Part shown: one piece after another, positions 4,297 to 20,654 of the stretch | Position numbering within the stretch: the stretch's first letter is position 1 | How the letters are laid out: each line of letters opens with the position of its first letter | Source: Tenacibaculum sp. 190130A14a | GTDB lineage: Bacteria; Bacteroidota; Bacteroidia; Flavobacteriales; Flavobacteriaceae | Assembly: GCF_964048965.1 (NCBI RefSeq) | Contig: NZ_OZ040189.1 | Span: 2,418,001-2,482,000, forward strand | Direction of reading: 5' to 3' | Length of the DNA stretch: 64,000 bases | Notes under the pieces: model-generated | Told to the model about the DNA's origin: nothing | Database searches by the model: none | Seen by the model: the letters and a program-made list of their open reading frames with translations, nothing else | Program-made: the position numbers and the translations under genes

Positions 4297-4325
4297 TGTA
4301 CAGTTACTTTTTAAAACACCCTATT
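4297..4325 (-). promoter_or_regulatory. Bipartite promoter-like element, copy A
   Basis: On the minus strand: AATAGGG, 16 nt, TGTACA. It points at the gene remnant 4220-4279. It is one of six such elements in the window with identical spacing, proposed to be promoters of the ECF sigma factor at 20106. Confidence 0.7.
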
Positions 4326-4329
4326 TTTT

Positions 4330-4365
4330 TTATATAAAAAACACAAATCTTTTTTAATTTGTGCC
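4330..4365 (-). terminator. Rho-independent terminator after the interrupted short-peptide gene
   Basis: Stem cacaaat (4342-4348) with atttgtg (4357-4363). On the minus strand it is followed by a T-rich run reaching the AATAGGG box of element A. Confidence 0.7.
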
Positions 4366-4384
4366 ATTAGCTTTATAATCTAGT

Positions 4385-4558
4385 TTAAAAATTACCTCCT
4401 GGTAGCTCTGAACTTTGCGCTTATGCTCTTCGTGCGTTCAGTATCATATAATTCCCTAAAGCTGTTAATGCAGTATACTTATCATATTTATCTAACTTTT
4501 CTAAGACTTCCTTTCTTGTAATTATTTTTTCGCAATTTGTAGAACTATTATCTCTCAT
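4385..4558 (-). pseudogene. Short secreted-peptide gene broken by an in-frame stop
   Basis: The minus-strand frame from ATG 4556-4558 reads through a 58-codon paralogue of the gene at 4714-4893: it has the ITRKE motif, KYTALTALGNYMIL hydrophobic core and PGGNF end. Codon 46 is TAA (4421-4423) where the paralogues have a CAA glutamine, a single C-to-T change, after which the frame continues to the normal stop (4385-4387). Two conserved glycines are also aspartates (KLDKYDKY against KLGKYGKY). The stop falls at the predicted signal-peptidase site, so a product would be a bare signal peptide. It has its own promoter-like element (4625-4653) and terminator. A sequencing error at one base is possible, but the other substitutions argue for true decay. 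Confidence 0.75.
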
Positions 4559-4624
4559 CAATTTGAAATATTAAACTATTGTGTTCAAAGATTTATGATA
4601 TAACTAATTACTATACCCATCAAC

Positions 4625-4653
4625 TGTACAGTTGATTATTAAAAGCCCCTATT
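4625..4653 (-). promoter_or_regulatory. Bipartite promoter-like element, copy B
   Basis: On the minus strand: AATAGGG, 16 nt, TGTACA, ending 66 bases before the ATG of the interrupted peptide gene at 4558. The AATAGGG box directly abuts the T-run of the preceding terminator, so the array is built of complete promoter-gene-terminator units. Confidence 0.72.
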
Positions 4654-4654
4654 C

Positions 4655-4695
4655 TTTTATATAAAAAAAGCACAAATCAATAATGATTTGTGCTA
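4655..4695 (-). terminator. Rho-independent terminator of the 731-aa gene / 59-aa gene operon
   Basis: An 11-bp perfect stem (agcacaaatca 4669-4679 with tgatttgtgct 4684-4694) is followed on the minus strand by seven T residues and an AT-rich tail. Confidence 0.9.
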
Positions 4696-4713
4696 TAATG
4701 CTCATTTTGTTGT

Positions 4714-4893
4714 TTAAAAATTACCCCCTGGAGGTTCTGGTTCTGGGCTCTGAGCTTGGGCCCTTTGTGGATTTAAAATCATATAAGTCCCTAAGGCGGT
4801 TAATGCTGTATACTTACCATACTTCCCTAACTTTTCTAAGGCTTCTTTTCTTGTGATTTTATTTTCTTGACTTGTCATATTTTGTGTTTTCAT
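4714..4893 (-). CDS. 59-aa predicted secreted short peptide precursor (intact copy)
   Basis: A small gene beginning 6 bases after the stop of the 731-aa secreted protein. The product has a charged N-terminus with the motif ITRKEALEK, a hydrophobic stretch (about residues 29-40, ALTALGTYMIL), then NPQRAQAQ and a Pro/Glu/Gly tail, PEPEPPGGNF. The layout resembles a Sec signal peptide with an Ala-Gln-Ala cleavage site that would release a peptide of about 12 residues; alternatively it stays as a membrane-anchored microprotein. A clear paralogue lies at 24339-24512, in the same place after another giant secreted protein, and two decayed copies follow here. Conservation of frame, ends and context shows it is a real gene. 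I do not recognise a named family. ATG at codon 6 is an alternative start. Confidence 0.85.
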   Translation of the reverse strand: MKTQNMTSQENKITRKEALEKLGKYGKYTALTALGTYMILNPQRAQAQSPEPEPPGGNF

Positions 4894-4899
4894 CGATGC

Positions 4900-7095
4900 T
4901 TATTTTTTTAGAATTACCTTCTTATTTGCTACTCCAATAGTGCTCTTTACATTCACTACATAAACTCCTGTTTCTACTTTTGGCAAAACAATACTATTCT
5001 TTCCGCTTCCTGTAAATTCTCCTTGATATACCAACGATCCTAAAGTGTTGTATAATGTTACTTCAAAGCGCTCTCCTTGAATACCTTCTACAAATAATGT
5101 TTGGTTGGCTGTATAAAGCTTGATATCTTCTGAGGTTACTTCTGGAATAATTACTTCTACTTTGCTATGCAAGTAAAATCTTCCTATTCCATTTTCTGAT
5201 TGTGATAGCGTTACTTGATAAGATTCTTTGGTTAAGTCAATATGCTTTTCTAATAATCTGTCTTCTAAATACACCTCAGCTCCTTCTGGTAAAGAAGTTC
5301 CTGTTGTACTAATGATGATAGATGTTCCTGCTGCTGCTTTAACTCCTACGGGAATAATAACCGTTTCATTGGTTTCTGTTGGTAAAGATTGATATGTAAA
5401 GTTCTTTTCTGATGAACCATCTAATAGTCTAGTGTAAATATCTAAACTTGCTCCATCAAAGTTTCCTACATCATATCCTGCATCTAATCCTTTAGTTGCA
5501 TTGCTTCTATAACTAATGCTAGTGTTTACTTTTATACTTTTAGAAGCTATTGATAGTTCTATAGAAGGTACACTTGCTGTTCTACTAAAAGCACCTCCTA
5601 TAGCAGGTTGTACCTTTCTTTGAGCTTGTTTAAATGATAAAGCACTGATTCCACTAGTAGTTTTTACAAAGAATCCTTGTCCGGGTGCTAATGAACTTTC
5701 TCCACTTGCCAATGTTTTAGCTACATACTTGTTTTGAGTATTGTCCCAAACATAGGCACCTACATAAGTCGGATCAAAACTAGCTAGATTATCATTGATA
5801 AAGTTCGTTCCTGAGTTTTCATTAATTGGTAAGAAAGCTGTGTATGGGTTTCCTACTGCATTCCATTGAGAGGCTGTTACTGTATGGTTTACATCAATCG
5901 TTGCTACAGTTCCTGTAAATGTAACAGCTCCATTGCTTGCTCTTGAAATAGCATAACTTCTTCCTTGTTCAAAAGTAATACTGTTAGAGGCCAAATCATC
6001 AACCGTATAATACACCCATTTATTTCCTGCTGTTCTACTATCATCATAGTATCCTACCGCATACCTATTAGGAGTTACTGTAGTGTTTACTCGAATATTA
6101 TTCGATGCGTTTTCAACAAAGTCTTTTACACTTTGACCAGAGACTGGAGCGGTTACAATGCTCCATTTGTTGGCTACTAAACCTCCACGCTCATAGCTTA
6201 CTTGTCCTGTAGCAGTTCCTTTTACAATCAAACTAGCACTATTTGCTGCTGTTGATGTCATGGTAAAAGTTCCGTTGTTGTCTAAATTACCATCTACTTG
6301 TACTCCTCCATTTTCATTGATTTCAAAAGAAGAAAGTGATGCTACTGTTAAATCGTTGATTTGAACTGAACTTCCTATTACTGGAGTCGTTGCTACATTT
6401 GGTATTACTACATTATCTGTGGTTGTTGGTAGCGCTCCTCCACCCCAATTGCCTGTAACTGTCCAATTAGAATCTACTGTTCCTAACCAAGATACTCCAG
6501 CTACAACAACTGCTCCTGTTGAATCAAAAGAATCGCCTGTTAATTGTACTCCAGGATGATTCGTACAGTCTGGAAATCCAAATGTAGTTGGTCCACAAGC
6601 TGTAAAAAACTGATCTAAATACACTGCTCCTGTTTCAAATGCTACATTTGGTGTTTCATTTATATCAGTATACTTGATTTTTATACTAAATAAATGTTTA
6701 GGTGTTGTGGTTACATTATTCGCCGTAATGGTTCCACTGCTTACTCCTTGCTGGAAAGAAGTAGATACTCTGGAAGTTGTATTATCGTTTACAATAAAAT
6801 CTTTGTAAGCAGGAAAACCATAAACTTCTCCTAAAATACTTCCTGATGGTTGTAAATATTGAAAGTTACCACTTGTATGAATATTACTTCCAAAAGCTGC
6901 TGTATTGTAGGTAAAATAAACTTGACCTGAACCTAATTTAAAATCTGTATCTGAAGCTATATAAATATCGGCTTCATAAAAATCGTCCGTTCCATCATTC
7001 GTATTTCGAGCATTTACGAAAGTAAAACTAATGTTCTGTGCAAATGTTATTGTACTAAATAAGGTTAATACAATTAGTAGTAATTTTCTATTCAT
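4900..7095 (-). CDS. Secreted T9SS surface protein with cohesin-like N-domain
   Basis: A 731-aa protein with a Sec signal peptide (residues 1-19). Residues about 20-200 form a beta-rich domain ('ADIYIASDTDFKLGSGQVYF...') that reads like a cohesin-type sandwich; this is tentative. From about residue 203 to the end it is very similar to the last ~530 residues of the 2636-aa protein at 24523-32433, including runs such as YERGGLVANKWSI, TPNRYAVGYYDD and GNPYTAFLP. That shared module ends in a type A T9SS sorting domain ('GVYVVNVKSTIGVANKKVILKK'), so the protein should be exported and surface-attached. A bipartite promoter-like element (7158-7186) lies 62 bases before the ATG, and a 59-aa peptide gene follows 6 bases after the stop. 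No enzyme active site is visible; an adhesin or scaffold role is likely. Confidence 0.88.
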   Translation of the reverse strand: MNRKLLLIVLTLFSTITFAQNISFTFVNARNTNDGTDDFYEADIYIASDTDFKLGSGQVYFTYNTAAFGSNIHTSGNFQYLQPSGSILGEVYGFPAYKDFIVNDNTTSRVSTSFQQGVSSGTITANNVTTTPKHLFSIKIKYTDINETPNVAFETGAVYLDQFFTACGPTTFGFPDCTNHPGVQLTGDSFDSTGAVVVAGVSWLGTVDSNWTVTGNWGGGALPTTTDNVVIPNVATTPVIGSSVQINDLTVASLSSFEINENGGVQVDGNLDNNGTFTMTSTAANSASLIVKGTATGQVSYERGGLVANKWSIVTAPVSGQSVKDFVENASNNIRVNTTVTPNRYAVGYYDDSRTAGNKWVYYTVDDLASNSITFEQGRSYAISRASNGAVTFTGTVATIDVNHTVTASQWNAVGNPYTAFLPINENSGTNFINDNLASFDPTYVGAYVWDNTQNKYVAKTLASGESSLAPGQGFFVKTTSGISALSFKQAQRKVQPAIGGAFSRTASVPSIELSIASKSIKVNTSISYRSNATKGLDAGYDVGNFDGASLDIYTRLLDGSSEKNFTYQSLPTETNETVIIPVGVKAAAGTSIIISTTGTSLPEGAEVYLEDRLLEKHIDLTKESYQVTLSQSENGIGRFYLHSKVEVIIPEVTSEDIKLYTANQTLFVEGIQGERFEVTLYNTLGSLVYQGEFTGSGKNSIVLPKVETGVYVVNVKSTIGVANKKVILKK

Positions 7096-7157
7096 GATTA
7101 AGTTTATGTTTCATTTTAAATATGGTTCGTAGGGTTTTATACAACGTATACATAGGT

Positions 7158-7186
7158 TGTACATTCTAATTCTTAATCACCCTATT
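7158..7186 (-). promoter_or_regulatory. Bipartite promoter-like element, copy C
   Basis: On the minus strand: AATAGGG, 16 nt, TGTACA, 62 bases before the start codon of the 731-aa secreted protein. It gives this gene and the following peptide gene their own start within the larger minus-strand run. Confidence 0.75.
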
Positions 7187-7223
7187 TTTTTATTTAATTT
7201 TTTAAAAAGAAGTGTTCTTTTAT

Positions 7224-7269
7224 TCAAGATTGAAAAAGCTATTACTTTTCAATAGCCTTTTCATCTTGA
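7224..7269 (-). terminator. Long hairpin after the 1791-aa gene, likely terminator
   Basis: A long imperfect stem (tcaagat 7224-7230 with atcttga 7263-7269, continued inside by aaaagctatt pairing with aatagccttt) lies 17 bases beyond the 1791-aa stop. The T-run on the minus strand is poor, so termination may be partial. Confidence 0.5.
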
Positions 7270-7285
7270 TTTTATAGGTTATTGT

Positions 7286-10200
7286 TTAAAATTGTTTTCC
7301 TTTCCCTATGTTCGGATTTAACAAGGTATTTATATCAGTATTTTGTATTTGACCATTCATATCCATGTCTGCTTTATTATATCCAGATCCCCCTAATAAT
7401 TGGATTACTGCACTAACATCTGCATTTTGAATTTGACCATTATCATCTTGATCTCCTACTGGAATTGCAAAAATTCCATTCCCCATATTAATCACAGCAT
7501 TTGCTGTACCTTTTAAGGAAGTGTTATCTGATGAATAATCAATTGAAGTATTACTTGCTGATAAATTATGTGTGTTTATGGATTGAACACTTAAATGATT
7601 ACGGTGTTTAATTACTATAAAATAGTTGCCAGCCGTTTGTGTAAAGTTTATTGGGGAAACACCATCTATACCAACAATATCTCCATCCCTTTGAAGAAGT
7701 CCCGATTTTCCATCTACAACAACACTACCATCAATAGCATCTCTTAATTCTATCCATATCCAATCAACAATTGCATTTGATCCCGTAGTATTAAATACAG
7801 ATATATCTGTCGTTAACGCATCACTATAAGGACTTGTAGTTGGCAATAATCCTCCTACTCTAAGATCATCTCTCATGAAACTCTCTTCTCCTGTATTTGG
7901 GTTTGATGCTGCTCCTTGTAAAAAAGCCTTAATTGACATAGTAATTGTATTCATCGTATAAACCGCAGTTACACTATTACTCATTGCTACGAATCCACAA
8001 ACGCTGTCTGTAAGTAAACTCTTTTTCCAATTAGTATCATCTCCAGAAGCATTTTGCAGTGTCCCTGTATTTGAATTACTAGAATCATCTGTTATATTGG
8101 TTCCAGAAGCTTGATTATAGTTATAATTTAATACCAAGTTTGTTTCTGATGTTGTATAAACAGTATTCATGCTTGATGTAATTTCCGTTTGTGTACGGAT
8201 TCCATTCCAGACTCTTGTTTGTGCTATTTCTCCACCAAACAACTTGTCAGATGTAGAAGTATTTTCATAGTTTCTTCCTATTCGAATGTTGGATGTTAAA
8301 TCAAAAGTTTCAAATCCATAATAAGTACTGGTTGTACCAATTAAATTTCCATTCACATAAAAATTAACACTTGAACCATTTATAGTAGCAGCTACATGGA
8401 ACCACGTATTTACTGGGTATGTATAACTTGGTGTATTAAAGGTTCCCCCATCATCTACGTCATTATCATGATGACCAGCAAAAATAGTTCCTCCAGAGAT
8501 ATTAATATATAATGGAACAACGACTGAAGCTATACCTGTTCCTGCATATGATTCAAAAGAAATAATGGAAGCGTTTACATCAGTAGCATCTGAAGCTGGA
8601 ATTTTAACCCACGTTTCTATAGTGGCTTGACTTGAACTTGTTAAATGAGAGTTGATTGCAGAAATACTAACGTAATCATCTACATTATCTAAACTCAAAC
8701 TATGTCTTACTCCATTATTACTATTTGCATCCGTTGCTACGACTTTATAAATTCTATCTGCTGAAATTGCTTCTGTTGTAAAAGAAAAATCAGTTCCCGT
8801 ACCCACTACTGGTCCTTGTAATACTTCATTGGATACATTATCTTGTAAATAATAACTTACTCCTGTTTGAGAGTTGGCAACTGATACAATTGCTAATTGC
8901 CCATTGGGTTGCGAAATATTAATTGTTTTCTCCTCCAATAGTTGAATGCTTGCAGTTGGTGTTTGTAACATTTGCAATGTATTGGTCGCTGAAGGCAACG
9001 TCTGATTATCTTGAACTCCTATTATATTATATGTACGGTTAGCTGTTAAAATTTCTTTAGTAAATGTAATTCCACTTCCAGTTCCTGCAATTGGTCCTTC
9101 AATGATACTATCATCTTGATTATTTCTTAAATAATAATGTACACTTGCTTGTGAATTATCTAATGAAATAGTTGCATGGGTATTACACATTACTGAACCT
9201 GTTGTATCTAAAGTTACATTTTGATTAGCTATTACAATGGCGTTCACAGTTAACGATTGCACTACATTTGGTGCAGCACTGTAGGAACCTCCTCCTGCTT
9301 GAGAGGCTGTAATATTGATAGTTCCTTCCTTAAGTATTGTTACCGTATTTCCAGTAATTGAAACAATTGTAGGGTCTGAACTTGTATATGTAACTGTTAA
9401 CCCAGAAGAAGCCGTTGCTGTTAAATTAAATGCTGCATCTCCATATATTACATCACTTAATGCGTTAAAAGTTATTGTTTGTGGAGCACCAATTACTGTT
9501 ACTGTAACATCTTTAGTTGTTGCATTGTATAAACTATTGTCAGAGGTAAATGCACGTAAAGTAACAGTTCCTGCACTTGAACCTGCAGTGAACACATTTC
9601 CATCCATAGAAGATCCTGTTCCTCCATTATCAATAATAGTATATGTAGTAGGTTGCCCTGAAAAATTCAATGCCGTTTCTATCGTTTTAGTTTCTCCAGG
9701 ATTTAATGAAAAGTCAAATAAATTATGAGCTAAATCTGTTTTAGGTGAAAATCCTGTATTAAAGAACAATGTTGAGTAATAGGCAACTGTTTCACTATAA
9801 TTTGCATCAGCTGCTTGGGTTACTTTTATTATAATAGATCCTGCCACATCACTTGTATTCAACAAATTACCGCTAATTGAATGTCCTAATGTTTCCCCTA
9901 TAATTTCAAAAGTGTAAGCTCCAGTAGAGTTTGAGTTCAACGTTGTTGTCATATCTACAGTAGTTACCCCCGAGTTGACCAAATAATAAATTCCACCTCC
10001 TAAAGTTGCTAAAGGTGCATTTATAGTCAAAGTCATGGTTTCGGTAGTACTTTGATATGTTGCCGTAGCTGCTTGAGATGCTTCAATAATAACCGTTCCT
10101 GCATTCCCTATATTCACAGTTTCATTGTTTGTACCGCTTAAGGTTGTTCCCGTTCCACCATCATTAAGAATTCTATAAGTAATTGCACCAGTAGAATTTG

Positions 10201-12661
10201 ATGTAGCATTCAAATTAAAATTTGTTCCCCCTGCATTTACAGCCATATCATTAAAAGTGATTGTTGGATTAATCAATGCTCCATTGTTAACTTTAGAAAA
10301 CTCGTACCCTGTTTGTTGATAACTCTTAAAAAAGTACGGTGCACCAGAATCTGTATATGCATAAATTGTAAAGTAATAAGTTGTACCTGAAGTCAATCCA
10401 GTTATTACCAAATTTGGTGTTGTTGATGCTCCTATATACATTACTTGTTCTCCTCCCTTATAATCAGCATCTGAAGTTGGAAGCGGTCCTCTAAATCCGT
10501 AAGGAGTAAAACTATTTACCGTATTCATCTTTACAATATACCCTTTAGCCGCTCCTCTTCCATTATCAGCAATAGGTGCTCCTGTAAATGAAGCTAAAGT
10601 AAATCCCGTTCCTGTAAAATTATTAATGACGGCATTTGAAGCCAACTTATCTGTTACTCCAGCTGTAAACTTTGATGTACTATGACCTGTATTAGAAAAA
10701 TAATACTGACCATTACACACTCTATAGGAGTATGTTTTGAAAAAATATTCTGTGTTGGGTAATAAATTATGCCCAGTAAAGGCTTGACCATTTGGGAACG
10801 TTCCTACCAAAATTACCTGTTCACCAGAGCCAGAATAATTTACATTCGCAGTAGGTAAACTACTTTGTACTCCTGTAATATCTGTAAATGAATTTTCTAC
10901 GTTTATTTTAACTACTTGCCCTTCTGCATCAGCAGGAACATTTGATAAAATTGGTGATAATCTATTTTCATATGTCAAATCTTCTCTAAAACTTAACAAT
11001 TGTGCATTACCTGATGGAATTCCACATGTTTTAATAGTTACTGGAGTACTTCCTGTTGTTTCAAAATAGTCTCCTCCAGCACAGGTATTGTAAGTATACA
11101 CCTTTACATAATAGGTTCCATTGGCTGTTAATCCAGTAATATTAAGATTTGGATTTGCTGAGCTACCTATATACATAACTTGTTCTCCTCCTGTCGCTGA
11201 ATTATAGACTGTACTGGCAGCTCCAGGAACAGCATTTGGTGCTGTAAAAGAATTTACATCACTTACTTTAACAATATAACCTAAAGCTCCATTTACAATT
11301 GACGGAGCTGTAAAAGAAGTAATACTTAATGTATTTGCACCTGTAGCACTTGCAGTTACATTTGTTACTGCTGATGGAGCTTCACAAACATAATTAGTAG
11401 TAACAACTGTAGAACCTGTAGTTTCAAAATTATATTTTCCTCCACATAAATCATAAGTATAAACTTTTACATAATACGCTTTATTAATCTGTAGTCCAGT
11501 AATTACTTGATTGATATTATCAGTAGTTCCAGCGGCACTTCCTACTTGTCCTGTATACACAACTTGCTCTCCTGTTTTGCCAGAATAGTCTAATGAAGCT
11601 GCTGGTATTGAAGTTCCGCTTACTGGTGCCGAAAAGCTGTTTGTATCACTAAATTTCACTAAATATCCGATAGAAGTATCCGCTCCAACTGGTCTACCTA
11701 GAGTATTAATAGTTGCGGTAGTTGGTGAAGTTGCAGTTACTGAATTAATACTCCCTACACCTGGTAATGTTCCTGGGCAAGTTGTAATAGATACAGGTGT
11801 ACTAGTGTTATTATAATTGATATATCCCTGACAATCACTATAGGTATACACTTTATAATAATAAGTAGTATTTCTTTGTAAATTAGTCATTGTCAAAACC
11901 GATTCTAATGCTCCATTGTCGGTTCCTACATATACTACATGTTCTCCAGAACCACTGTAAGAATTATTTACTGCAACATTAGGTAATGACTGATTTTGGA
12001 TGTAATGATCGGTAAAATCTGTGAATGAATTTGTTCTTGAAAACTTGACTATATAATAAACATCATCAAAGCTGTTAGTTCCTAAAGTATTTAAAGTAAC
12101 ATCGGTATCATTAACTTGTTTAGGTGATGGTGTTGCAATTCCAAACTCATAACAATAGTATAATGAATTTAAAGAATTCGCTTTTAAATTAAAATTATAA
12201 TTAAAACTAGTAGCACTAGTAATTACTTCAATAGCATAATAGTTATTACTATTACCTCCACTTACATTATTACTATATGGTAAACGAACACTATAATCAT
12301 AAATCCCCGAAGATTGCATCAAAGTTCGCATTGTACCAATATTTACTGGAGTTACTCCCCAATTTCCACCGCGATACTCCCAAATTCTGAAATCAAAATT
12401 TGGATTACTATTTACCCAAAGCCTATCTAAATAAAGGAACATATCAGTAGCCTGCGTTACTTTTCGAGAAATAATCCAAAAATCAGAATCAGTACTTGTA
12501 ACTGTTCCTTGATAATTGGCAGACATATGAATTCGGGTTTGAGCAGAGGATATTGCATTGGCAACAGAATTATTATTCTCTACCTCATTAAACGTTTGAG
12601 CAATCATTTGTGTTATTGTTAAACACATAAGTATTGCATACAAGAGTATATTTTTTTTCAT
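7286..12661 (-). CDS. Giant secreted adhesin-like protein: Fn3, Ig-like, LamG and dockerin-like tail
   Basis: A 1791-aa protein with a signal peptide (1-21). Order: an N-terminal beta domain (to about 165); a run of Fn3-like repeats, each ending in 'NTTYYYKVYTY'-type strands (to about 790); Ig-like/Big repeats (about 795-1140); two similar ~90-residue repeats (about 1145-1310); a LamG/concanavalin domain (about 1320-1520, 'ATIETWVKIP', 'WFHVAATINGSSVNFYVNG'); and a C-terminal module (about 1578-1791) with 'LLQRDGDIV' and 'IVIKHRNHLSV'. The last 56 residues contain two dockerin-like calcium loops (DQDDNGQIQNAD and DMDMNGQIQNTD) and end in PNIGKGKQF. There is no type A T9SS domain; this tail probably serves for export or attachment. 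The C-module is nearly identical to that of the next upstream paralogue (12817-17676). Probably a surface adhesin; the ligand is unknown. Confidence 0.85.
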   Translation of the reverse strand: MKKNILLYAILMCLTITQMIAQTFNEVENNNSVANAISSAQTRIHMSANYQGTVTSTDSDFWIISRKVTQATDMFLYLDRLWVNSNPNFDFRIWEYRGGNWGVTPVNIGTMRTLMQSSGIYDYSVRLPYSNNVSGGNSNNYYAIEVITSATSFNYNFNLKANSLNSLYYCYEFGIATPSPKQVNDTDVTLNTLGTNSFDDVYYIVKFSRTNSFTDFTDHYIQNQSLPNVAVNNSYSGSGEHVVYVGTDNGALESVLTMTNLQRNTTYYYKVYTYSDCQGYINYNNTSTPVSITTCPGTLPGVGSINSVTATSPTTATINTLGRPVGADTSIGYLVKFSDTNSFSAPVSGTSIPAASLDYSGKTGEQVVYTGQVGSAAGTTDNINQVITGLQINKAYYVKVYTYDLCGGKYNFETTGSTVVTTNYVCEAPSAVTNVTASATGANTLSITSFTAPSIVNGALGYIVKVSDVNSFTAPNAVPGAASTVYNSATGGEQVMYIGSSANPNLNITGLTANGTYYVKVYTYNTCAGGDYFETTGSTPVTIKTCGIPSGNAQLLSFREDLTYENRLSPILSNVPADAEGQVVKINVENSFTDITGVQSSLPTANVNYSGSGEQVILVGTFPNGQAFTGHNLLPNTEYFFKTYSYRVCNGQYYFSNTGHSTSKFTAGVTDKLASNAVINNFTGTGFTLASFTGAPIADNGRGAAKGYIVKMNTVNSFTPYGFRGPLPTSDADYKGGEQVMYIGASTTPNLVITGLTSGTTYYFTIYAYTDSGAPYFFKSYQQTGYEFSKVNNGALINPTITFNDMAVNAGGTNFNLNATSNSTGAITYRILNDGGTGTTLSGTNNETVNIGNAGTVIIEASQAATATYQSTTETMTLTINAPLATLGGGIYYLVNSGVTTVDMTTTLNSNSTGAYTFEIIGETLGHSISGNLLNTSDVAGSIIIKVTQAADANYSETVAYYSTLFFNTGFSPKTDLAHNLFDFSLNPGETKTIETALNFSGQPTTYTIIDNGGTGSSMDGNVFTAGSSAGTVTLRAFTSDNSLYNATTKDVTVTVIGAPQTITFNALSDVIYGDAAFNLTATASSGLTVTYTSSDPTIVSITGNTVTILKEGTINITASQAGGGSYSAAPNVVQSLTVNAIVIANQNVTLDTTGSVMCNTHATISLDNSQASVHYYLRNNQDDSIIEGPIAGTGSGITFTKEILTANRTYNIIGVQDNQTLPSATNTLQMLQTPTASIQLLEEKTINISQPNGQLAIVSVANSQTGVSYYLQDNVSNEVLQGPVVGTGTDFSFTTEAISADRIYKVVATDANSNNGVRHSLSLDNVDDYVSISAINSHLTSSSQATIETWVKIPASDATDVNASIISFESYAGTGIASVVVPLYINISGGTIFAGHHDNDVDDGGTFNTPSYTYPVNTWFHVAATINGSSVNFYVNGNLIGTTSTYYGFETFDLTSNIRIGRNYENTSTSDKLFGGEIAQTRVWNGIRTQTEITSSMNTVYTTSETNLVLNYNYNQASGTNITDDSSNSNTGTLQNASGDDTNWKKSLLTDSVCGFVAMSNSVTAVYTMNTITMSIKAFLQGAASNPNTGEESFMRDDLRVGGLLPTTSPYSDALTTDISVFNTTGSNAIVDWIWIELRDAIDGSVVVDGKSGLLQRDGDIVGIDGVSPINFTQTAGNYFIVIKHRNHLSVQSINTHNLSASNTSIDYSSDNTSLKGTANAVINMGNGIFAIPVGDQDDNGQIQNADVSAVIQLLGGSGYNKADMDMNGQIQNTDINTLLNPNIGKGKQF

Positions 12662-12772
12662 AAGAGGGCTTAAATTTTGTTCTACTTTTCTAACCTTTTT
12701 GATAAAAGGGCTTTATTATATTGCTATTAATATTTATACAACTCAATTCAGAAACTATTCTTCAAACAATTC

Positions 12773-12808: not shown

Positions 12809-12816
12809 CATAAAAA

Positions 12817-15800
12817 TTAGAATTGTTTTCCTTTACCAATATTTGGATTTACTAATGTATTTACATCTGTATTCTGAATCTGACCATTCATATCCATATC
12901 TGATTTATTATATCCTGATCCACCTAGAAGTTGGATGATAGCATTGATATCTGCATTTTGAATTTGTCCATTTTCATCTTGATCTCCTACAGGAATAGCA
13001 AATACTCCATTTCCTAAATCCACTACCGCATTGGCTCCTCCTTGAAGTGATGTATTGTTTGATGATAAATCAATAACTGTATTACTGTTTGTTAAACTAT
13101 AAGCGTTTGCAGAAAGCACACTCAAATGATTTCTGTGCTTAATTACGATATGATAACTTCCAGAAGATTGTGTAAACGTAACCGGTGAGCTTCCATCAAC
13201 AGATACAATATCTCCATCTCTCTGTAACAAAGCTGACTTTCCTTCTACAACAATAGAATTATCAGTACCATCTCTTAATTCTACCCAAATCCAATCTACA
13301 ATTGCATTTCCACCGGTATTTGTAAATACTGAAGCACTTGTAATAAGAGCATCACTATAAGGACTTGTTGTAGGCAGTATACTTCCTGCTCTAAGGTCAT
13401 CTCTCATTAAACTTTCTTCTCCAACATTTGGATTGATTGCCGCTCCTTGTAAATAAATCTTGGGACTCAACGTAATATCAGGATTCGCCACTGTTAGTGT
13501 TTGCATAACCGAAGCAGCAGCTGTATAATTGGTGTTTCCAACTTGCCTTGCTGTAATAATGGTACTTCCCATCCCTACTACACTTACTACATTTCCTGAA
13601 ACAGTTGCCACTGCCGTATTTGAACTAGTGTATGTTATTGTTAATCCTGAAGTAGTACTTGCTGTAAGGTTAAAGTCTGGGCTCGAAGGCGCTACTGAAG
13701 TTAAACTGTTAAATGTAATTACTTGATTCGCTCTGTTAATCGTAAAACCATAGTTATCTGATCCTTTATATTGCGGATCTGATGCACTCACAGTAACTGA
13801 CATCGTATAATCTCCGGCATTTGTTGGGGGTGTATTCGAAGGTCCATAATCGATATCATCCGTATCAGTTCCTTGATAAGAAACTGTATATGTAGGTGTA
13901 ACTACTTGATCATTGCTATCTGTAAAACTTGAAATAGCAGGTCCTTGAGCAGAACCATTATAGGTCAAGCTTCCTGAACCAAAATTTATCATTACATTTT
14001 CTTTTTCAAAAACACTTAACGTGGCTATAGTACTTCCAAAGAAATTTACATCGTTCGTATTTACATATGCATGAACTTTATAAGTTCCTCCATTTGTAGG
14101 AGCATATGTAGATTTCCTGTAATAGGTCCCGTTAATTCCTTCATATGTCATTAGAATATTAGGTTCGGGCGTTGCTGCTACCCCAGGGCTTGTTTCAATA
14201 CTATTTACTGTAACTGATCTTTGGGTACCATCATAATCCTGTGTTAAGTTTGTTAAGTTAATTGTAACTTCTGTTTTGTTTGTTATAATTAAGTTTCCAG
14301 AATAATTGACCGTATAATTATTCGAATTTGCCGCATAAATAGATACCGTATAATTTCCTATTGCTATTGGGGCTGCCTCACTATTATATGCTCCTGTTCT
14401 ATACAAAATTCTTAATGGAATATTTTCTCCTAGTACTCCAGTTGCCGAAGCTTCAAATTCTTTAGGAAGTCCATCATAAGCTTTTGATTGTGGTGTATTA
14501 GGATTGATTGTAATCCCTCTTTGATTAATCCTAAAACTTCCCACTACTTCTCCAAAATAATTAGTATCGGATTCATCTACAGTAGCTTTAACGGTATAAT
14601 CTCCTGCATTAGTTGGAGGTGTATTAGAAGGACCATACGAATTTCCTGAGTAATCATTTCCTTTATATGAAAAGTTGATTGCTGGTGATACAACACTTCC
14701 ATCAGACACTTTAGCTACACTTGTTACGCCAACTGCCTTTCTTGGGTTTCCATCATAAAAAGATATTGCTAAATCTGAACTATTTAATGTAATATTTACT
14801 TGTTCCTTAGTAGTTATTGTAAATACACCTGTTTTTAATCTAATATCATAATTCGCGGTAGTTGATATCATCGGGGTTGAAAATCGATTACTTACATCTG
14901 AAGATTTAGTTTTCTTAGTTATGTTACCATTTTTCTCTGAAGCAAAAGGGTCATCTCGTCCTATACAAATACCTGTAGGACATACACCTGTAGGATCAAA
15001 GCTAGCGGGTGCTTGTGCGCTTTGATCTACTGATATTACATACGTTCCTGCTGTTTCTCCCGGTTCTCTTTTTAAAGGTACCCAAATTTTAGTATCTCCA
15101 TAGGCCAGTTTTCCTTGTGTTATTGAATATGACAAGGCTGGATCAGCACTACTTAATGCTTTTATAATATCATTAGGTGTTATTTCTAAAATATTGGATG
15201 AAGCGGATCTTGTAACCGTAATTGTAGTACTCCCTGCAATAACATTGTAATTTTTATCTTCTGGTATAAATCTGGTATAAATAGTTGTAGGGATTCCACT
15301 ATTGTACGTCAGTGATGTTACTCCTTCTGTTATTTTCCCTGAGTAAATGTTCAAAGAAGCATGATAATAAGTATAATACTCAAATGTTCCAGTAACATTT
15401 GCACTGGCATTTAAATGAGTAGCATCTAAAGGTACTCCTTCTAGAATAGTAGTAGGAGTATTCCAAGAAATTACTGGGTTTCCTTTTGATATAGTTAAAT
15501 TAAAGTCTTTTGTAATTTCATTATAAATACCATTCGCAGGTACTGTAATTCTTAATGTCGTATTTCCAACCGTTCCTGGTGTAAAATCGTTCCCACTTAA
15601 ACTTGACCCTGTAGTATCATTTACTAAACTATAGGAAATAGATCCTGTACTCGTGGTTGTTGCATTTAAAGTAGTTACTCCACTTCCATATATTATTGTT
15701 GGTGGCGTAAAACTTAACCCTAAAGTACTCTGCGTAAAGGTGTATCCCGTTTGTTGATATATAGGAGTTCCGTTACAATCATTGTATGCATATATTGTAA

Positions 15801-17676
15801 AATAATACGGTGTTCCTTCTGTAAGTCCTGTAATATTTAAGTTTGGTGTGATTGATGTGCCCACATGTACAACTTGTTCTCCACCGGCATACGCTGCATT
15901 ACCTGATGGAAGTACTGAACCGCTAGCTAAAGGTGAAAAACTATTTACAGTATTCATCTTTATGACATATCCGTCTGGCGCATTTGTAGTTGCTGTTGGT
16001 GCTGTAAACGAGTTTAGGTCAAAAGAAGTTGTATTTATGTTATCCGTTACCACATTCGAGGCTAACTCGGAAGTAATACCACAGGTTGTATTTTGACTAT
16101 AAATACCAGTTGGGTAAAAATAGTAAACACCATTACAAATCTTATAATTTACTGCAGCAAAATAATAAGTAGTACCTGGTAAAAGTCCGGTTGTAGTGAC
16201 TCTAAAACCAGTAGCTGCTCCCGTATAAATAGCTGCCTGACCAGTTTTACCAGTATAATCCGTGCTCACACTTGGTAAATTTGCTGCCGTTAATATGGTT
16301 GGTAATGTAAAGTTATTCTCGGTACTTATATAAATAATTTTACCATCTGCGTTGTTGTTTCCTGTAAAATTAACAACACTCATAGTGTTATGCGAACTCG
16401 TTGGCTCTGCATATAAATAAATTTGAGCATTACTATTTGGTGGTGCACATACTGGTGTTATCGAAGATCCAACTCCAGTAGATTCAAAATAATAATTACC
16501 ACCACAAAATTCTGCTGTATACACTTTAAAAAAATACGTTGTTCCTGTATTTAATCCAGTGATTAATTCATTAGGCGTAGCTGAGTCTCCTGCATAAACA
16601 ACTTGTTCTCCTCCTGTGTAAACTGAGTTTGCTGTTGGTAAGCTTGTACCATTTGTAGGAGCTGTAAAATTATTAGTTGTATTTGCTTTTACAACATATC
16701 GTTTTGAAGCTCCTATACTTCCAGTTATTGAGCTTATATAACTTGAACTTTCGTTATTTGCAGATAAGTTTAGAACTGTGGCCCTTGCTGGTGCTGCTCC
16801 ACATGTTGTTACAGTAAATACATTTCCTGTTCCTAGTTTCAAATTACCACCACAATCGCTATAATTAAATACTTTCACATAATAGGTAGTGTTTGCATTA
16901 AGTCCAGTTACGGTAACATTTGGAGTATAAGAATTACCTAAATAAACAGTTTGCTCTCCAGAACCATTATATGCCGTTCCTTCTGAAGTAGGATAACTCG
17001 TTCCTGATGTTGGATTAGTAAAGCTATTTACCGTATTGACTTTTATAAGTGATATATTAGTGCTTCCACCAACCGCTGTAATTCTAAAATCATTCTCAGT
17101 TGGGTCTGTAGACAATACAGTACTCGCTCCAGGTGTATTGCATCTTGGAAAATGAACTCTATAACTATATCCTCCTGATCTACCGCCTCCTACTCTAATC
17201 AAATAGTACTCATTTGCAGCGGAGTATGAAATTCCCATTGCTCGATTCGATTGATCAGTTCCTTGATGAATTAAAGTGCTAGAAATTACAGGTCCATCAT
17301 AACTTCCTGTTCTTTTTTCTAACCATACTTCGGGTTGCATAGATCCTAAATTAGATTGAACCGCCATTCCTACATAACCATTAGAAAAAGGAGATCTTCC
17401 TATTTTATAGTAGTCTTCATCACTCCCTACTACTGTACTTCCTCCAATAATTGTGGTGGTATTGGTTGTAGCTACCGTAAGTGTTTTCACACCGGTATCA
17501 TTGGGAAGATTATTTGGTTCCGTTTCGCTTGCATAGTCAAACTGTGCGGTGATTATTGTAGTGGTCAATAAACAGACTATAGTTAGTAAAAACAACTGTT
17601 GCTTTTTACTTAAATTCAGTTGTGATTTAAGCAAACACCATAAATATGTATAAAATGTTAGCGTAGTTTTTTTCAT
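12817..17676 (-). CDS. Giant secreted adhesin-like protein: Fn3, MBG/Ig-like and dockerin-like tail
   Basis: A 1619-aa paralogue of the 1791-aa protein. The N-terminus is an unusually long signal sequence (about 45 residues: a charged/aromatic extension, then LFLLTIVCLLTTTIITAQ). Order: N-terminal beta domain (about 46-175, similar to its neighbour); Fn3-like repeats (to about 655); Ig-like modules; several MBG/YDG-type repeats (about 960-1300, with recurring 'YGPSNTPPTNAGDYT'); a Big-type domain (about 1305-1395); and the same C-terminal module (about 1407-1619) with two dockerin-like loops ending in PNIGKGKQF. No type A T9SS domain and no enzyme motif are present. It starts 63 bases after the 64-aa gene with no terminator between, so both should be transcribed from element D (17964-17992). 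A surface adhesion role is inferred from the domain types. Confidence 0.85.
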   Translation of the reverse strand: MKKTTLTFYTYLWCLLKSQLNLSKKQQLFLLTIVCLLTTTIITAQFDYASETEPNNLPNDTGVKTLTVATTNTTTIIGGSTVVGSDEDYYKIGRSPFSNGYVGMAVQSNLGSMQPEVWLEKRTGSYDGPVISSTLIHQGTDQSNRAMGISYSAANEYYLIRVGGGRSGGYSYRVHFPRCNTPGASTVLSTDPTENDFRITAVGGSTNISLIKVNTVNSFTNPTSGTSYPTSEGTAYNGSGEQTVYLGNSYTPNVTVTGLNANTTYYVKVFNYSDCGGNLKLGTGNVFTVTTCGAAPARATVLNLSANNESSSYISSITGSIGASKRYVVKANTTNNFTAPTNGTSLPTANSVYTGGEQVVYAGDSATPNELITGLNTGTTYFFKVYTAEFCGGNYYFESTGVGSSITPVCAPPNSNAQIYLYAEPTSSHNTMSVVNFTGNNNADGKIIYISTENNFTLPTILTAANLPSVSTDYTGKTGQAAIYTGAATGFRVTTTGLLPGTTYYFAAVNYKICNGVYYFYPTGIYSQNTTCGITSELASNVVTDNINTTSFDLNSFTAPTATTNAPDGYVIKMNTVNSFSPLASGSVLPSGNAAYAGGEQVVHVGTSITPNLNITGLTEGTPYYFTIYAYNDCNGTPIYQQTGYTFTQSTLGLSFTPPTIIYGSGVTTLNATTTSTGSISYSLVNDTTGSSLSGNDFTPGTVGNTTLRITVPANGIYNEITKDFNLTISKGNPVISWNTPTTILEGVPLDATHLNASANVTGTFEYYTYYHASLNIYSGKITEGVTSLTYNSGIPTTIYTRFIPEDKNYNVIAGSTTITVTRSASSNILEITPNDIIKALSSADPALSYSITQGKLAYGDTKIWVPLKREPGETAGTYVISVDQSAQAPASFDPTGVCPTGICIGRDDPFASEKNGNITKKTKSSDVSNRFSTPMISTTANYDIRLKTGVFTITTKEQVNITLNSSDLAISFYDGNPRKAVGVTSVAKVSDGSVVSPAINFSYKGNDYSGNSYGPSNTPPTNAGDYTVKATVDESDTNYFGEVVGSFRINQRGITINPNTPQSKAYDGLPKEFEASATGVLGENIPLRILYRTGAYNSEAAPIAIGNYTVSIYAANSNNYTVNYSGNLIITNKTEVTINLTNLTQDYDGTQRSVTVNSIETSPGVAATPEPNILMTYEGINGTYYRKSTYAPTNGGTYKVHAYVNTNDVNFFGSTIATLSVFEKENVMINFGSGSLTYNGSAQGPAISSFTDSNDQVVTPTYTVSYQGTDTDDIDYGPSNTPPTNAGDYTMSVTVSASDPQYKGSDNYGFTINRANQVITFNSLTSVAPSSPDFNLTASTTSGLTITYTSSNTAVATVSGNVVSVVGMGSTIITARQVGNTNYTAAASVMQTLTVANPDITLSPKIYLQGAAINPNVGEESLMRDDLRAGSILPTTSPYSDALITSASVFTNTGGNAIVDWIWVELRDGTDNSIVVEGKSALLQRDGDIVSVDGSSPVTFTQSSGSYHIVIKHRNHLSVLSANAYSLTNSNTVIDLSSNNTSLQGGANAVVDLGNGVFAIPVGDQDENGQIQNADINAIIQLLGGSGYNKSDMDMNGQIQNTDVNTLVNPNIGKGKQF

Positions 17677-17739
17677 GAGAGGGTTTAAATTTGGTTTTAG
17701 ATTTTGATGTGTTAATCAGAATAAAGAGATGATAAATCC

Positions 17740-17934
17740 TTAAATGTTTTCTGCTTTTCTGATTCGTTGAATGTTTATAATTTTCATTTTGTGACCATTA
17801 AAACTTTTTTCTATCAATACATCGGTAAACCAATGAAGCTTCCCACGATGAATAATTGGAAGAAACAAGAACTTCTGAATGTTCTCTCTAACTTTAAATC
17901 GTCTTTTAGATAAATGTTTTAAATCAACTTTCAT
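17740..17934 (-). CDS. Small basic protein, paralogue of the one at 32493
   Basis: 64 aa, rich in Lys/Arg, with no signal peptide or membrane segment. Its core (FLFLPIIHRGKLHW, then EKSFNGHKMKIINI) aligns closely with the 57-aa product at 32493-32666 (FLFFPLLHNGRVFW, EKAFNGYKMKIIKI). Both sit between a TPR-HTH regulator gene and a giant secreted-protein gene on the same strand, which makes chance ORFs unlikely. The family is not known to me. A cytoplasmic role in regulating or assisting expression of the downstream gene is a guess from position and charge. Element D ends 29 bases before the ATG. Confidence 0.8.
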   Translation of the reverse strand: MKVDLKHLSKRRFKVRENIQKFLFLPIIHRGKLHWFTDVLIEKSFNGHKMKIINIQRIRKAENI

Positions 17935-17963
17935 ATTCGTTAGTTAAATGGTTACTTATAAAC

Positions 17964-17992
17964 TGTACATCTAAATTGTTTTTAACCCTATT
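17964..17992 (-). promoter_or_regulatory. Bipartite promoter-like element, copy D
   Basis: On the minus strand: AATAGGG, 16 nt, TGTACA, 29 bases before the ATG of the 64-aa gene. It is positioned to transcribe the 64-aa, 1619-aa and perhaps 1791-aa genes. Confidence 0.75.
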
Positions 17993-18041
17993 TTTTCGTG
18001 TCAAAACTATTTAACTCCTTATCAAAATTCTAAAAAACCAC

Positions 18042-18065
18042 CTATACAAAAAACTATACAAAAAC
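18042..18065. repeat. 12-bp direct repeat upstream of the 64-aa operon
   Basis: Two adjacent copies of ctatacaaaaaa/c (18042-18053 and 18054-18065), followed by a partial third (aatacacc). The array lies about 50 bases upstream of element D. A similar 11-bp array with the same ACAAAAA core lies in the matching place of the paralogous locus (32740-32771). It is a candidate operator for the neighbouring TPR-HTH regulator. Confidence 0.5.
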
Positions 18066-18130
18066 AATACACCACTACAAATCAACCACTTACACAAAGA
18101 ACTATTTTAATACTAGTAGTTATCTCGATC

Positions 18131-18160
18131 CAAAAAAAAAAGAGAGTTTGCAACTCTCTT
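18131..18160 (-). terminator. Rho-independent terminator of the 610-aa regulator gene
   Basis: Stem agagagtt (18141-18148) with aactctct (18152-18159), followed on the minus strand by ten T residues, directly after the stop codon. Confidence 0.9.
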
Positions 18161-19993
18161 TTAACTTAAATATTCCACTAATGAAATTTCTTTTGGAGCA
18201 GATATCTTTTTACGAAGTCTATACCTACTAATAAAAATACTATCAACTGATACCCCTAACATATTGGCTATTTCATTATTGTCTAAACCTAATTTCTCCA
18301 ATGCAACTAAACGTTCTTCTGATTTTGTAAGTTTGTATCCTTTTCCATTTATCTGAGCAAAAAAATGTGGATGCACCTTAGAGAATTTATCTTTGAACAG
18401 ATACCAGTCATCTTTTGTAAGAATTTTAGCATTAACTAGCTCTTGAATTGAATGAATTGTTTCCTTTTCTGAAACTTGATCTTTTAATACTTCCAATTGT
18501 AGTTTTAATTCATCTTGTTCTTTACTTTTCAATAATAATTGATGTGTAAAACTGTTCAACTCAATTTTGTTTCTTTCAACCTGTTTTTTTAACTGTGTCC
18601 TTTTATTTTTTTCTCTCCACCAAATTCCAAATATTATTAGCATAATCGAAAACAAAATAGCGACTAAAGTATTTCTCTTACTCCTTGAGATCTTTTTATC
18701 CGCTATTAATTTTTGAATATCTTTTTCTTTTTGAACATTATTAAATCTAGCTTGATGAAAGGCCAAAGCATCTGTTAATGCCTCTTTATTAATAGAATCT
18801 TTCAATTTCAAATAACTATTGTTGTGTTTTAATGCTTCTTTATAATTTCCTAATTTTAAATAGACCTTAGATAACAATCTTTCACTTTCTAAAAGGCTTA
18901 TATTTTTAACCGAGTTCATCTCTGAAAACTTTCTAAAATCTTGCAAGAGTTGTAACGCTTTAACTATTTCTCCTTTTTCTATGAAATATTCGGCTTTTTC
19001 AGGAGTTATTGAAAACAGTAGTTTTTTATGCTTAATTTCTTTTTCTAACGTGAGTATTTGATTAAAAATAGTATCGGCTGATTTTAAATTCTTCTCCTTT
19101 AATCTTAATCTTAATTCTATTTGCCTTGATTGAAAAGCATTATTACTTTGAACTACTACGTCAGTGATGAAACTAGTATATCTCTTTGATGAGTCTAAAT
19201 ACTTATTGGCTTTATTTAAATCATTCGCTTTAATTGCCTCTTCGCTTAAAACCAAGTATAAAAATTGTAAAGGAGCATATGATTTATATTTTTTAGTTTT
19301 TATAATTAATTGATGCGTCTTTTCATTTGCTGTCTTACTCAATCCATTTCTACGATAGATTAAATCCAATTCTTTTGCTGTTCGATATATATATGGATAG
19401 TCTTTCAATTTCTCATAAAAATCATGCGCTTTTTCAAGATATTTAATAGCCGAAATAAAATTACCTGAATTGGAGTAAGCCTGTCCTGAAAAATAAAAAG
19501 CATCTGCAGCAAAAATTGAATCATTAGATGCTAAAAATAAATGTGCCGATTTCTGATAATCTTCAATAGCTTTTTTATAAGCCAATTCAGAAAAATATAC
19601 GCCTCCTCTTTTTAAAAGTATATGTGCTTCTGACTTTTCTTGAGTAAAATATTTTTTATATGATAATAAAGAATCACATAAACTCTTGGCTTCTTTATTT
19701 TTACCTTTCATGATGTATTGCTGCACTAAAAATCGAGCTTTAGAAGCTAACAAATCATATTCTCGAAGTTCTTTGGCAAGTAATAAATATTCCTTTAATA
19801 CAGGGACCAATTCTTTATGGTTTTTACGAATCATTTGCTTCGTTAACTCATCTAAAATTTTAAGTTTATCTTTCTTTTGAATAGTTTCTTGAGCTATTGT
19901 TTTTAGAGAATCAATTTCAGTTTGTGCAAATAGTATATTCACAAAAAATACAACCACCACTAAATTAACCAAACATAACCTACTTATAATCAT
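18161..19993 (-). CDS. TPR-transmembrane-HTH (LuxR-like) regulator, locus II
   Basis: A 610-aa membrane-bound regulator. Signal-like segment at 1-24, TPR repeats over about 30-410, a single membrane helix at about 437-457 (TLVAILFSIMLIIFGIWW), a charged coiled coil (about 460-520), and a C-terminal helix-turn-helix (about 555-605: 'LTKSEERLVALEKLGLDNNEIANMLGVS'). The TPR part should be periplasmic and the HTH cytoplasmic, so it can pass an envelope signal directly to DNA. It is a full-length paralogue of the 620-aa protein at 32809-34671. It lies upstream of the 64-aa gene on the same strand, separated by a strong terminator, and is divergent from the ECF sigma gene. Element E in the shared 112-base intergenic region points at this gene, so it is probably part of the sigma regulon. 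Confidence 0.85.
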   Translation of the reverse strand: MIISRLCLVNLVVVVFFVNILFAQTEIDSLKTIAQETIQKKDKLKILDELTKQMIRKNHKELVPVLKEYLLLAKELREYDLLASKARFLVQQYIMKGKNKEAKSLCDSLLSYKKYFTQEKSEAHILLKRGGVYFSELAYKKAIEDYQKSAHLFLASNDSIFAADAFYFSGQAYSNSGNFISAIKYLEKAHDFYEKLKDYPYIYRTAKELDLIYRRNGLSKTANEKTHQLIIKTKKYKSYAPLQFLYLVLSEEAIKANDLNKANKYLDSSKRYTSFITDVVVQSNNAFQSRQIELRLRLKEKNLKSADTIFNQILTLEKEIKHKKLLFSITPEKAEYFIEKGEIVKALQLLQDFRKFSEMNSVKNISLLESERLLSKVYLKLGNYKEALKHNNSYLKLKDSINKEALTDALAFHQARFNNVQKEKDIQKLIADKKISRSKRNTLVAILFSIMLIIFGIWWREKNKRTQLKKQVERNKIELNSFTHQLLLKSKEQDELKLQLEVLKDQVSEKETIHSIQELVNAKILTKDDWYLFKDKFSKVHPHFFAQINGKGYKLTKSEERLVALEKLGLDNNEIANMLGVSVDSIFISRYRLRKKISAPKEISLVEYLS

Positions 19994-20030
19994 ACAAATA
20001 ACAACATTACTACATTAATATCTTTATTAT

Positions 20031-20059
20031 TGTACAGTAAAATTATAGTAGACCCTATT
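20031..20059 (-). promoter_or_regulatory. Bipartite promoter-like element, copy E
   Basis: On the minus strand: AATAGGG, 16 nt, TGTACA, 37 bases before the ATG of the TPR-HTH regulator. It lies in the divergent region shared with the sigma gene but is oriented away from it. Confidence 0.75.
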
Positions 20060-20105
20060 CATTATTCCTTTTTTTTTTAGATTTGTCAAACATTAATTTT
20101 TGTCA

Positions 20106-20627
20106 ATGCCCGAACAACAAAAATCTGTTTGTGAAGAAAAGAACTTTGATTCTTTATTCAATACCTACTACGAAACTGCTACCAACTACATTTATTATAA
20201 ATGTGGAAATTTGCAGCAAGCAGAAGATATTGTTCAGGATGCTTTTGTAAAAATTTGGAAAAGATGTGCTGAAGTAATTTATGAAACTGCAAGATCTTTC
20301 CTGTATACTATATGTAATAATGCATTACGTAACCAGTTTGCGCATCAAAAAGTCGTGTTACGCCATGAGGCAATTCCTAGAAGTGATAGAGATCATGAAA
20401 GTCCTGAGTTCATTTTGGAAACAGAAGAATTTAGAAGTAAACTAGAAAATGCCATTGCAAGTTTATCTGATAAAGAAAGAGAAGTTTTTTTATTAAGTCG
20501 TATTGATAAAAAAACGTATAAAGAAATAGCTGAAATAACTAACATAACTGTAAAGGCCGTAGAAAGAAGAATGAGCAATGCATTTATCAATCTAAGAAAG
20601 ATTTTAGGAAAAGATTTAAAATTTTAA
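20106..20627 (+). CDS. ECF sigma-70 factor of a FecI-type cell-surface signalling system
   Basis: A 173-aa ECF sigma factor that redirects RNA polymerase to a special promoter set. Region 2 is visible as 'AEDIVQDAFVKIWKR' and region 4 as 'LSDKEREVFLLSRIDKKTYKEIAEI' plus the recognition helix 'TVKAVERRMSNAFINLRKIL'. There is no extra domain, as expected for the class. ATG 20106 is preferred over the in-frame TTG two codons earlier. Downstream come a FecR-like anti-sigma factor and an STN-containing outer-membrane receptor, the canonical trio in which ligand binding outside the cell activates the sigma factor. The bipartite element overlapping its stop codon (20626-20654), and five others nearby, are its proposed targets. 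Confidence 0.93.
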   Translation: MPEQQKSVCEEKNFDSLFNTYYETATNYIYYKCGNLQQAEDIVQDAFVKIWKRCAEVIYETARSFLYTICNNALRNQFAHQKVVLRHEAIPRSDRDHESPEFILETEEFRSKLENAIASLSDKEREVFLLSRIDKKTYKEIAEITNITVKAVERRMSNAFINLRKILGKDLKF

Positions 20628-20654
20628 TAGGGTAAATGCATTTATAGTGGTACA
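20626..20654 (+). promoter_or_regulatory. Bipartite promoter-like element, copy F (before fecR)
   Basis: The only copy on the plus strand: AATAGGG (overlapping the sigma stop codon), 16 nt, GGTACA (one mismatch to TGTACA). It ends 26 bases before the ATG of the anti-sigma gene, the placement expected for autoregulation of the signalling trio. Confidence 0.7.

Follow-up and report, generated by a model that had tools for sequence, protein, structure and literature searches.

Six candidate ECF promoters at a FecI-type sigma factor gene and the probable local regulon of surface-type proteins in Tenacibaculum

Sets of genes for a FecI-type sigma factor, a FecR anti-sigma factor and an outer-membrane receptor are very numerous in Bacteroidota. 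One such set lies in a 64-kb stretch of DNA (the window analyzed here) from the 3.94-Mb single-contig genome of Tenacibaculum sp. 190130A14a (genome label G000), together with six elements of the form AATAGGG-N16-(T/G)GTACA, most of which precede genes for regulators or surface-type proteins. This raises the question of whether the elements are promoters and, if so, which sigma factor reads them. We consider it very probable that all six are promoters, with AATAGGG as the -35 box, a 16-bp spacer and TGTACA as the -10 box, and that they are read by the local FecI-type extracytoplasmic function (ECF) sigma factor. The computed basis for this conclusion is the motif itself, the fact that it is confined to the locus and co-occurs with the sigma factor, its placement before genes, a start-site signature and the recurrence of the same gene families in two genera, while binding and transcription by the local sigma factor are predicted from sequence.

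A preliminary description of the window had listed six elements with a 16-base spacer, and all six were recovered at the same coordinates, on the same strands and without a single mismatch. They are given here with the start sites that they predict:

20626 to 20654, plus strand: putative ECF promoter of the fecR-receptor operon, AATAGGG-N16-GGTACA, predicted transcription start near 20661
20031 to 20059, minus strand: putative ECF promoter of the gene for a tetratricopeptide repeat protein with a helix-turn-helix domain (TPR-HTH), predicted start near 20024-20025
17964 to 17992, minus strand: putative ECF promoter of the genes for 64-, 1619- and 1791-amino-acid proteins, predicted start near 17957
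7158 to 7186, minus strand: putative ECF promoter of the genes for a 731-amino-acid protein and a PGxGF peptide, predicted start near 7151
4625 to 4653, minus strand: putative ECF promoter before a decayed PGxGF peptide copy, predicted start near 4618
4297 to 4325, minus strand: putative ECF promoter before the remnant of a third peptide cassette, predicted start near 4290

The element at 20626 begins inside the stop codon of the sigma factor gene. From the second box to the ATG we measured 26 nt for FecR, 37 nt for the TPR-HTH gene, 29 nt for the 64-amino-acid protein, 62 nt for the 731-amino-acid protein and 66 nt for the decayed peptide copy, in agreement with the earlier statement that intact targets start 26 to 66 bases downstream. 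No further site was found elsewhere in the window at one or two mismatches. Genome-wide, the exact motif likewise occurs six times, always within this one locus of 16.4 kb, and the six one-mismatch sites of the genome all fall within reading frames of either strand. Base composition leads one to expect 0.0039 exact matches per window and 0.24 per genome. At the loose setting of one to two mismatches, six matches were reached in 9 of 100 shuffles, so that the count alone is not significant; it is the exactness of the six elements, and not the two-mismatch count, that is rare.

To relate the motif to the sigma factor, we searched 166 Tenacibaculum genomes, taking as an ortholog any sigma factor of at least 75% identity. 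Orthologs of 75-100% identity were present in nine genomes (the source genome included), the next best match being 62% identical; T. aiptasiae and T. agarivorans are among the genus-mates that this search found. The numbers of exact sites in the nine genomes are 2, 2, 3, 3, 4, 4, 5, 5 and 6, which add up to 34. The 157 genomes lacking the ortholog hold 12 exact sites altogether, 11 of which fall inside frames of at least 100 amino acids. At least two exact sites were thus found in 9/9 ortholog carriers versus 1/157 others (G050, with two), which gives a Fisher p-value of about 5e-14 that is nominal since the genomes are related. A reversed control pattern matched six times over the 166 genomes and never in the nine with the sigma factor. 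Had the motif been as common in genomes devoid of this sigma factor, the preliminary assignment would have fallen; the counts support it instead.

Spacing and placement were analyzed in the nine genomes. When any spacer was allowed between TAGGGT and TGTACA, 79 sites were obtained, of which 39 had exactly 16 bases between TAGGG and TGTACA; no other spacing in the range tested (9-23) exceeded five sites, and a spacing of 17 yielded none. The pattern TAGGG-N16-KGTACA gave 53 sites, compared with 10 for the reversed control. With frames inspected on both strands, 46 of the 53 stand in promoter position, and in 44 of these an ATG-started frame begins 21-78 nt downstream, so that the motif is not equally frequent inside genes. 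The seven sites inside genes (three in G003, two in G148, one each in G141 and G004) were set aside. An eighth site overlapped by a frame of at least 100 amino acids, the FecR promoter of the window, was kept as the frame is antisense; this frame of 147 amino acids (20587-21030, minus strand) was rejected as spurious because it lies opposite the end of the sigma factor gene and fecR. Downstream of the second box, base 6 is a T in 42 and base 7 a purine in 44 of 45 sites, one of the 46 (at the edge of L119) having no flank. This conserved pair likely marks the transcription start, which would place the second box between about -12 and -7, and is consistent with the earlier proposal of starts some 6-10 bases after TGTACA. 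Five of the six window sites have the pair at this position. Two boxes at one fixed spacing and in one orientation are what ECF promoters, with their spacing of about 16-17 bp, are expected to have.

Beyond Tenacibaculum, a scan of named genomes revealed orthologs of the sigma factor, 73-79% identical, in nine Aquimarina records; a hit in Ruminococcaceae (L136, 24% identity) was dropped as noise. All nine Aquimarina loci have a FecR-side box with the same -35 sequence and 16-bp spacer, followed by TGTATT (seven loci), TGTATA (one) or TGTACT (one). In the Aquimarina stretches retrieved, all 41 TAGGG-type sites (TAGGGT-N15-TGTANW) lie outside frames, and they precede genes for FecR, ELWxxDGT, FNYQ, FG-GAP, thioredoxin-like and 731-like proteins. 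These families are also found behind the Tenacibaculum sites, and the same gene families therefore recur in two genera. In two of five whole Aquimarina genomes, 8/9 and 8/11 matches to TAGGGT-N15-TGTANT are clustered at the sigma factor gene, in stretches of 33 and 42 kb. A similar arrangement was observed at 21 Tenacibaculum loci with sister sigma factors (55-62% identity), all of which have TAGGG-N16-TGT on the FecR side, completed to TGTTNT in 19, TGTTTA in one and TGTCTT in one. Taking the nine orthologs and the 21 sisters together, TAGGG-N16-NGT is present on the FecR side of 30/30 Tenacibaculum sigma factor loci. To judge from these sequences, the -35 box and spacer are common to the clades and the -10 box varies with the sigma factor clade. 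Region 2 of the sigma factor varies along with the -10 box: residue 75 is R in all nine TGTACA sigma factors, L in all nine of Aquimarina and L or F in the sisters (alignment A1, with 26 of the 30 loci; L053, which has an internal stop, L060, L066 and L069 were left out). The match between residue 75 and the -10 box is a clade-level correlation that reflects only two or three independent events.

The altered -10 boxes bear on the alternative that survives best, although it is still improbable, namely that the promoters are real but are read by another ECF sigma factor or by several. A candidate is the paralog encoded in the source genome (G000 2046679, 54% identical): both its fecR and a divergent gene carry the TAGGG box with 16-bp spacing, so that some overlap is possible. 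However, the boxes of the paralog end in TGTTTA (fecR) and TGTTTT (divergent gene), and genomes with only sister sigma factors have no TGTACA promoters. Assignment to the local sigma factor, which had been a conjecture in the preliminary description, is now favored by the co-occurrence, by the FecR-side boxes and by the changed -10 boxes in Aquimarina and the sisters.

An even less probable explanation is that the elements, rather than being sigma factor boxes, are operators bound by a transcription factor, for which the TPR-HTH protein encoded at the locus would be the most plausible candidate. TGTACA is a palindrome, the TPR-HTH gene has its own copy of the element in front, and autoregulation is common. 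Yet this protein was not found in the stretches retrieved around the sigma factor gene in Aquimarina L129 and L130, where the FecR boxes are intact, whereas the sigma-FecR-receptor set is kept in 18/18 ortholog loci of Tenacibaculum and Aquimarina. Moreover, the fixed 16-bp spacing, the fixed direction and the start signature 6-7 nt further on are traits of promoters, and a second box that changes with the sigma factor clade does not fit an operator of the TPR-HTH protein. There is least to be said for the spread of a duplicated promoter-gene cassette, by which the shared letters would reflect common descent and not one sigma factor: the 4297 and 4625 sites do belong to peptide cassettes repeated in tandem (71-78% alike), but the spacer sequences differ between sites while boxes and spacing stay constant, and the boxes are kept before unrelated genes and across two genera, so that for the other four sites this explanation is largely refuted.

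Several observations weigh against reading the elements as promoters of the local sigma factor. The seven sites inside genes are close in number to the 10 control matches. Two of the 46 promoter-position sites have no frame nearby (the window site at 4297 and L112 14602); at 4297 there is no ATG-started frame of at least 25 amino acids within 220 nt downstream. At the window site 20031 the T/purine pair is shifted by one base. The FecR promoter has the variant box GGTACA in five of the nine orthologs, i.e. the window and its four closest relatives, the other four having TGTACA. Many of the sites in close relatives are orthologous to each other and hence not independent. In two others of the five Aquimarina genomes (G166 and G167) the genome-wide counts do not exceed the control (6 versus 5 and 9 versus 15). 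Lastly, the sister-type pattern gave 68 sites versus 17 for its control in the nine genomes and is scattered over them; locality is therefore a feature of the clade of the local sigma factor and not of all such sigma factors.

The genes on which the promoters would act, and the sigma factor gene itself, are the following:

20106 to 20627, plus strand: FecI-type ECF sigma factor, 173 amino acids, Pfam Sigma70_r2 and r4_2 above cut-off
20078 to 20085, plus strand: TAnnTTTG -7 box (TAGATTTG), likely the housekeeping promoter of the sigma factor gene
20681 to 21586, plus strand: FecR-type anti-sigma factor, 301 amino acids, FecR and FecR_C above cut-off
21602 to 24271, plus strand: TonB-dependent outer-membrane receptor, 889 amino acids, CarboxypepD-like and plug domains, weak STN match
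18161 to 19993, minus strand: TPR protein with a weak LuxR-type HTH, 610 amino acids, TPR_12 above and GerE below cut-off
17740 to 17934, minus strand: 64-amino-acid protein, first gene behind the 17964 promoter, with homologs in related loci
12817 to 17676, minus strand: giant surface-type protein, 1619 amino acids, MBG and fn3 domains
7286 to 12661, minus strand: giant surface-type protein, 1791 amino acids, laminin-G-like and fn3 domains
4900 to 7095, minus strand: secreted protein of 731 amino acids with a type IX secretion system (T9SS) type A sorting domain (TIGR04183, 26.9 bits, cut-off 23)
4714 to 4893, minus strand: PGxGF peptide of 59 amino acids, directly behind the 731-amino-acid gene

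The sigma factor consists of regions 2 and 4 only (38.9 bits for r2, cut-off 24; 56.1 bits for r4_2, cut-off 25.7), and its start codon is more likely the ATG at 20106 than the TTG at 20100. A TAnnTTTG box, the consensus given in excerpts of PMC9723704, lies upstream of the sigma factor gene in 18/18 orthologs, none of which has an ECF box on the sense strand before this gene, and the gene is for this reason likely made by the housekeeping polymerase. FecR scored 74.6 bits (cut-off 24) and FecR_C 37.8 bits (cut-off 24.4). The receptor gene starts 15 nt after fecR, and its product has a Plug domain (38.9 bits, cut-off 23.9). The receptor had been described as carrying an STN domain. It is TonB-dependent, but the STN match, which appeared only in a search with the first 116 amino acids by themselves (E 2.7e-4, 21.1 bits), stays below the Pfam curated cut-off of 28.4. 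A PDB sequence search with the receptor gave no match up to E 0.1. Identity to the orthologs, taken from the best full-length alignments, is 67-85% for the receptor and 52-76% for FecR, levels that would fit a conserved signal.

By analogy with the known FecIR family, the system may work as follows. The sigma factor would be made from its housekeeping promoter and held by FecR until the TonB-dependent receptor takes up an outside signal and the sigma factor is released. The active sigma factor would then transcribe the TPR-HTH regulator, the genes for the 64-amino-acid and giant proteins, and those for the 731-amino-acid T9SS protein and the small peptide. It would also transcribe the fecR-receptor pair, and as this pair lies behind an ECF box, the active sigma factor should increase its inhibitor as well as its sensor, a feedback that yields more of each.

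The genes behind the sites of the nine genomes encode FecR, TPR-HTH proteins, the 64-amino-acid family, giant fn3/MBG/laminin-G proteins, FG-GAP, ELWxxDGT and fibre-like FNYQxVxRD proteins, PGxGF peptides and a thioredoxin-like protein. The first genes downstream of the 46 sites, most of them judged from their first residues and 10 by hidden Markov models, included no recognisable secretion-machinery gene. The 64-amino-acid protein is basic and has tblastn homologs of 48-62% identity in G003, G045, G094 and G165, usually near an ECF box, and no Pfam or NCBIfam match. The preliminary description had spoken of secreted adhesins as targets and of the 731-amino-acid product as a T9SS protein. These labels hold for the 731-amino-acid protein, whose sorting domain is above cut-off, but in the two giants of the window neither a T9SS domain nor an NCBIfam match was found; in related genomes, 7 of 10 target proteins scanned have the sorting domain above cut-off. 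Two FNYQ proteins matched the N-terminal domain of mosaic adhesive trimer fibres (NF053851) with 24.6 and 29.6 bits, below the cut-off of 60, and one of the two has a C1q-like end; such fibres are described for Bdellovibrio in excerpts of PMC10769870. The targets are presumably displayed on the surface, where they may serve in adhesion. At one locus of a related genome (L116, contig 18 of G003), five ECF boxes lie within about 9 kb, one promoter apiece for four fibre-like FNYQ genes and for a peptide.

The PGxGF peptides are found in the window at 4714-4893 and 24342-24512, with a decayed copy at about 4388-4558 (all on the minus strand). They consist of 55-60 amino acids, with (S/T)RKEAL, a hydrophobic stretch running to AQA and a short SPE..PGxGF tail resembling a released peptide. 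Of 7008 candidates, 5269 were homologs at E <= 0.001; neither Pfam nor NCBIfam yielded a family above cut-off (two peptides were searched in NCBIfam). A same-strand gene with a T9SS-tail-like end, as judged by eye, is located upstream in 27/30 PGxGF loci, and four related genomes have an intact copy with its own ECF promoter. One guess is that the peptide is a partner or marker of T9SS cargo. Elsewhere in the source genome (G000:C1:1705261; L141, L179) there is a near copy of the end of the 731-amino-acid gene with the peptide, where the genome-wide search detected no exact ECF box. A second TPR-HTH-like protein of 620 amino acids is encoded in the window at 32809-34671 (minus strand), next to a 2636-amino-acid leucine-rich-repeat-like protein (24523-32433, minus strand), the end of which resembles the 731-amino-acid protein, and a PGxGF peptide; this group is without an ECF box.

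Related systems are compared here as they appear in excerpts of the papers cited. Like FecI-FecR-FecA of Escherichia coli and relatives, the locus combines an ECF sigma factor, FecR and a TonB-dependent receptor with an ECF-type -10/-35 promoter (PMC9249621). In that system fecIR lacks autoregulation and iron uptake is the target (PMC9249621), whereas here fecR and the receptor have a promoter of the sigma factor's own type, apart from the sigma factor gene, and the targets are surface-type proteins. PorXY-SigP of Porphyromonas gingivalis likewise ties a Bacteroidota ECF sigma factor to type IX secretion, but SigP is reported to control components of the secretion machinery (PMC7712824), while the genes behind the present sites encode cargo-type surface proteins and the switch comprises FecR and a receptor. 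The SM6 motif of Flavobacterium psychrophilum is also a putative ECF motif of Flavobacteriaceae linked to T9SS genes and a sigma/anti-sigma pair; this transcriptome-derived motif is characterized by a CGT box in the -10 region, and its targets are T9SS core genes (PMC9723704), in contrast to the -10 TGTACA and -35 TAGGG found here, without the CGT box. PUMA3/VreI of Pseudomonas aeruginosa is a FecIR-like switch with targets beyond iron uptake, but differs in phylum, sigma factor clade and targets (PMC2729926). Dma/Das (ECF21) of Bacteroides thetaiotaomicron shares envelope-spanning control of a Bacteroidota ECF sigma factor; its anti-sigma factors are of another build, the effect is on vesicles, and FecR is not named in the excerpted text (PMC13088901). 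In our searches of open-licence papers we found no description of a promoter motif for the FecI/FecR/receptor sets of Tenacibaculum or Aquimarina. FecIR cell-surface signalling is known, and the promoter code and the adhesin regulon look like new variations on it.

Tentatively, and with the balance somewhat against it, the locus may be a contact- or surface-sensing switch by which one outer-membrane receptor turns on a whole set of interchangeable surface fibres encoded nearby, a set that new fibre genes would enter by gaining the promoter. Paralogous FecI-type systems of the same cell would have the -35 box and 16-bp spacer in common, with the -10 box (TGTACA, TGTA(T/C)T, TGTTNT) as the sole difference that separates them. 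If so, residue 75 and the -10 box would form a readable code for insulating sigma factors. The boxes TGTACA, TGTATT and TGTTNT offer a natural series in which to study how cross-talk between paralogous sigma factors is avoided. The motif itself can be read from the sequence and points to a complete local regulon of surface proteins, so that the targets of an orphan outer-membrane receptor become open to direct testing. It also offers a marker by which to find those surface fibres in marine flavobacteria for which joint deployment is likely.

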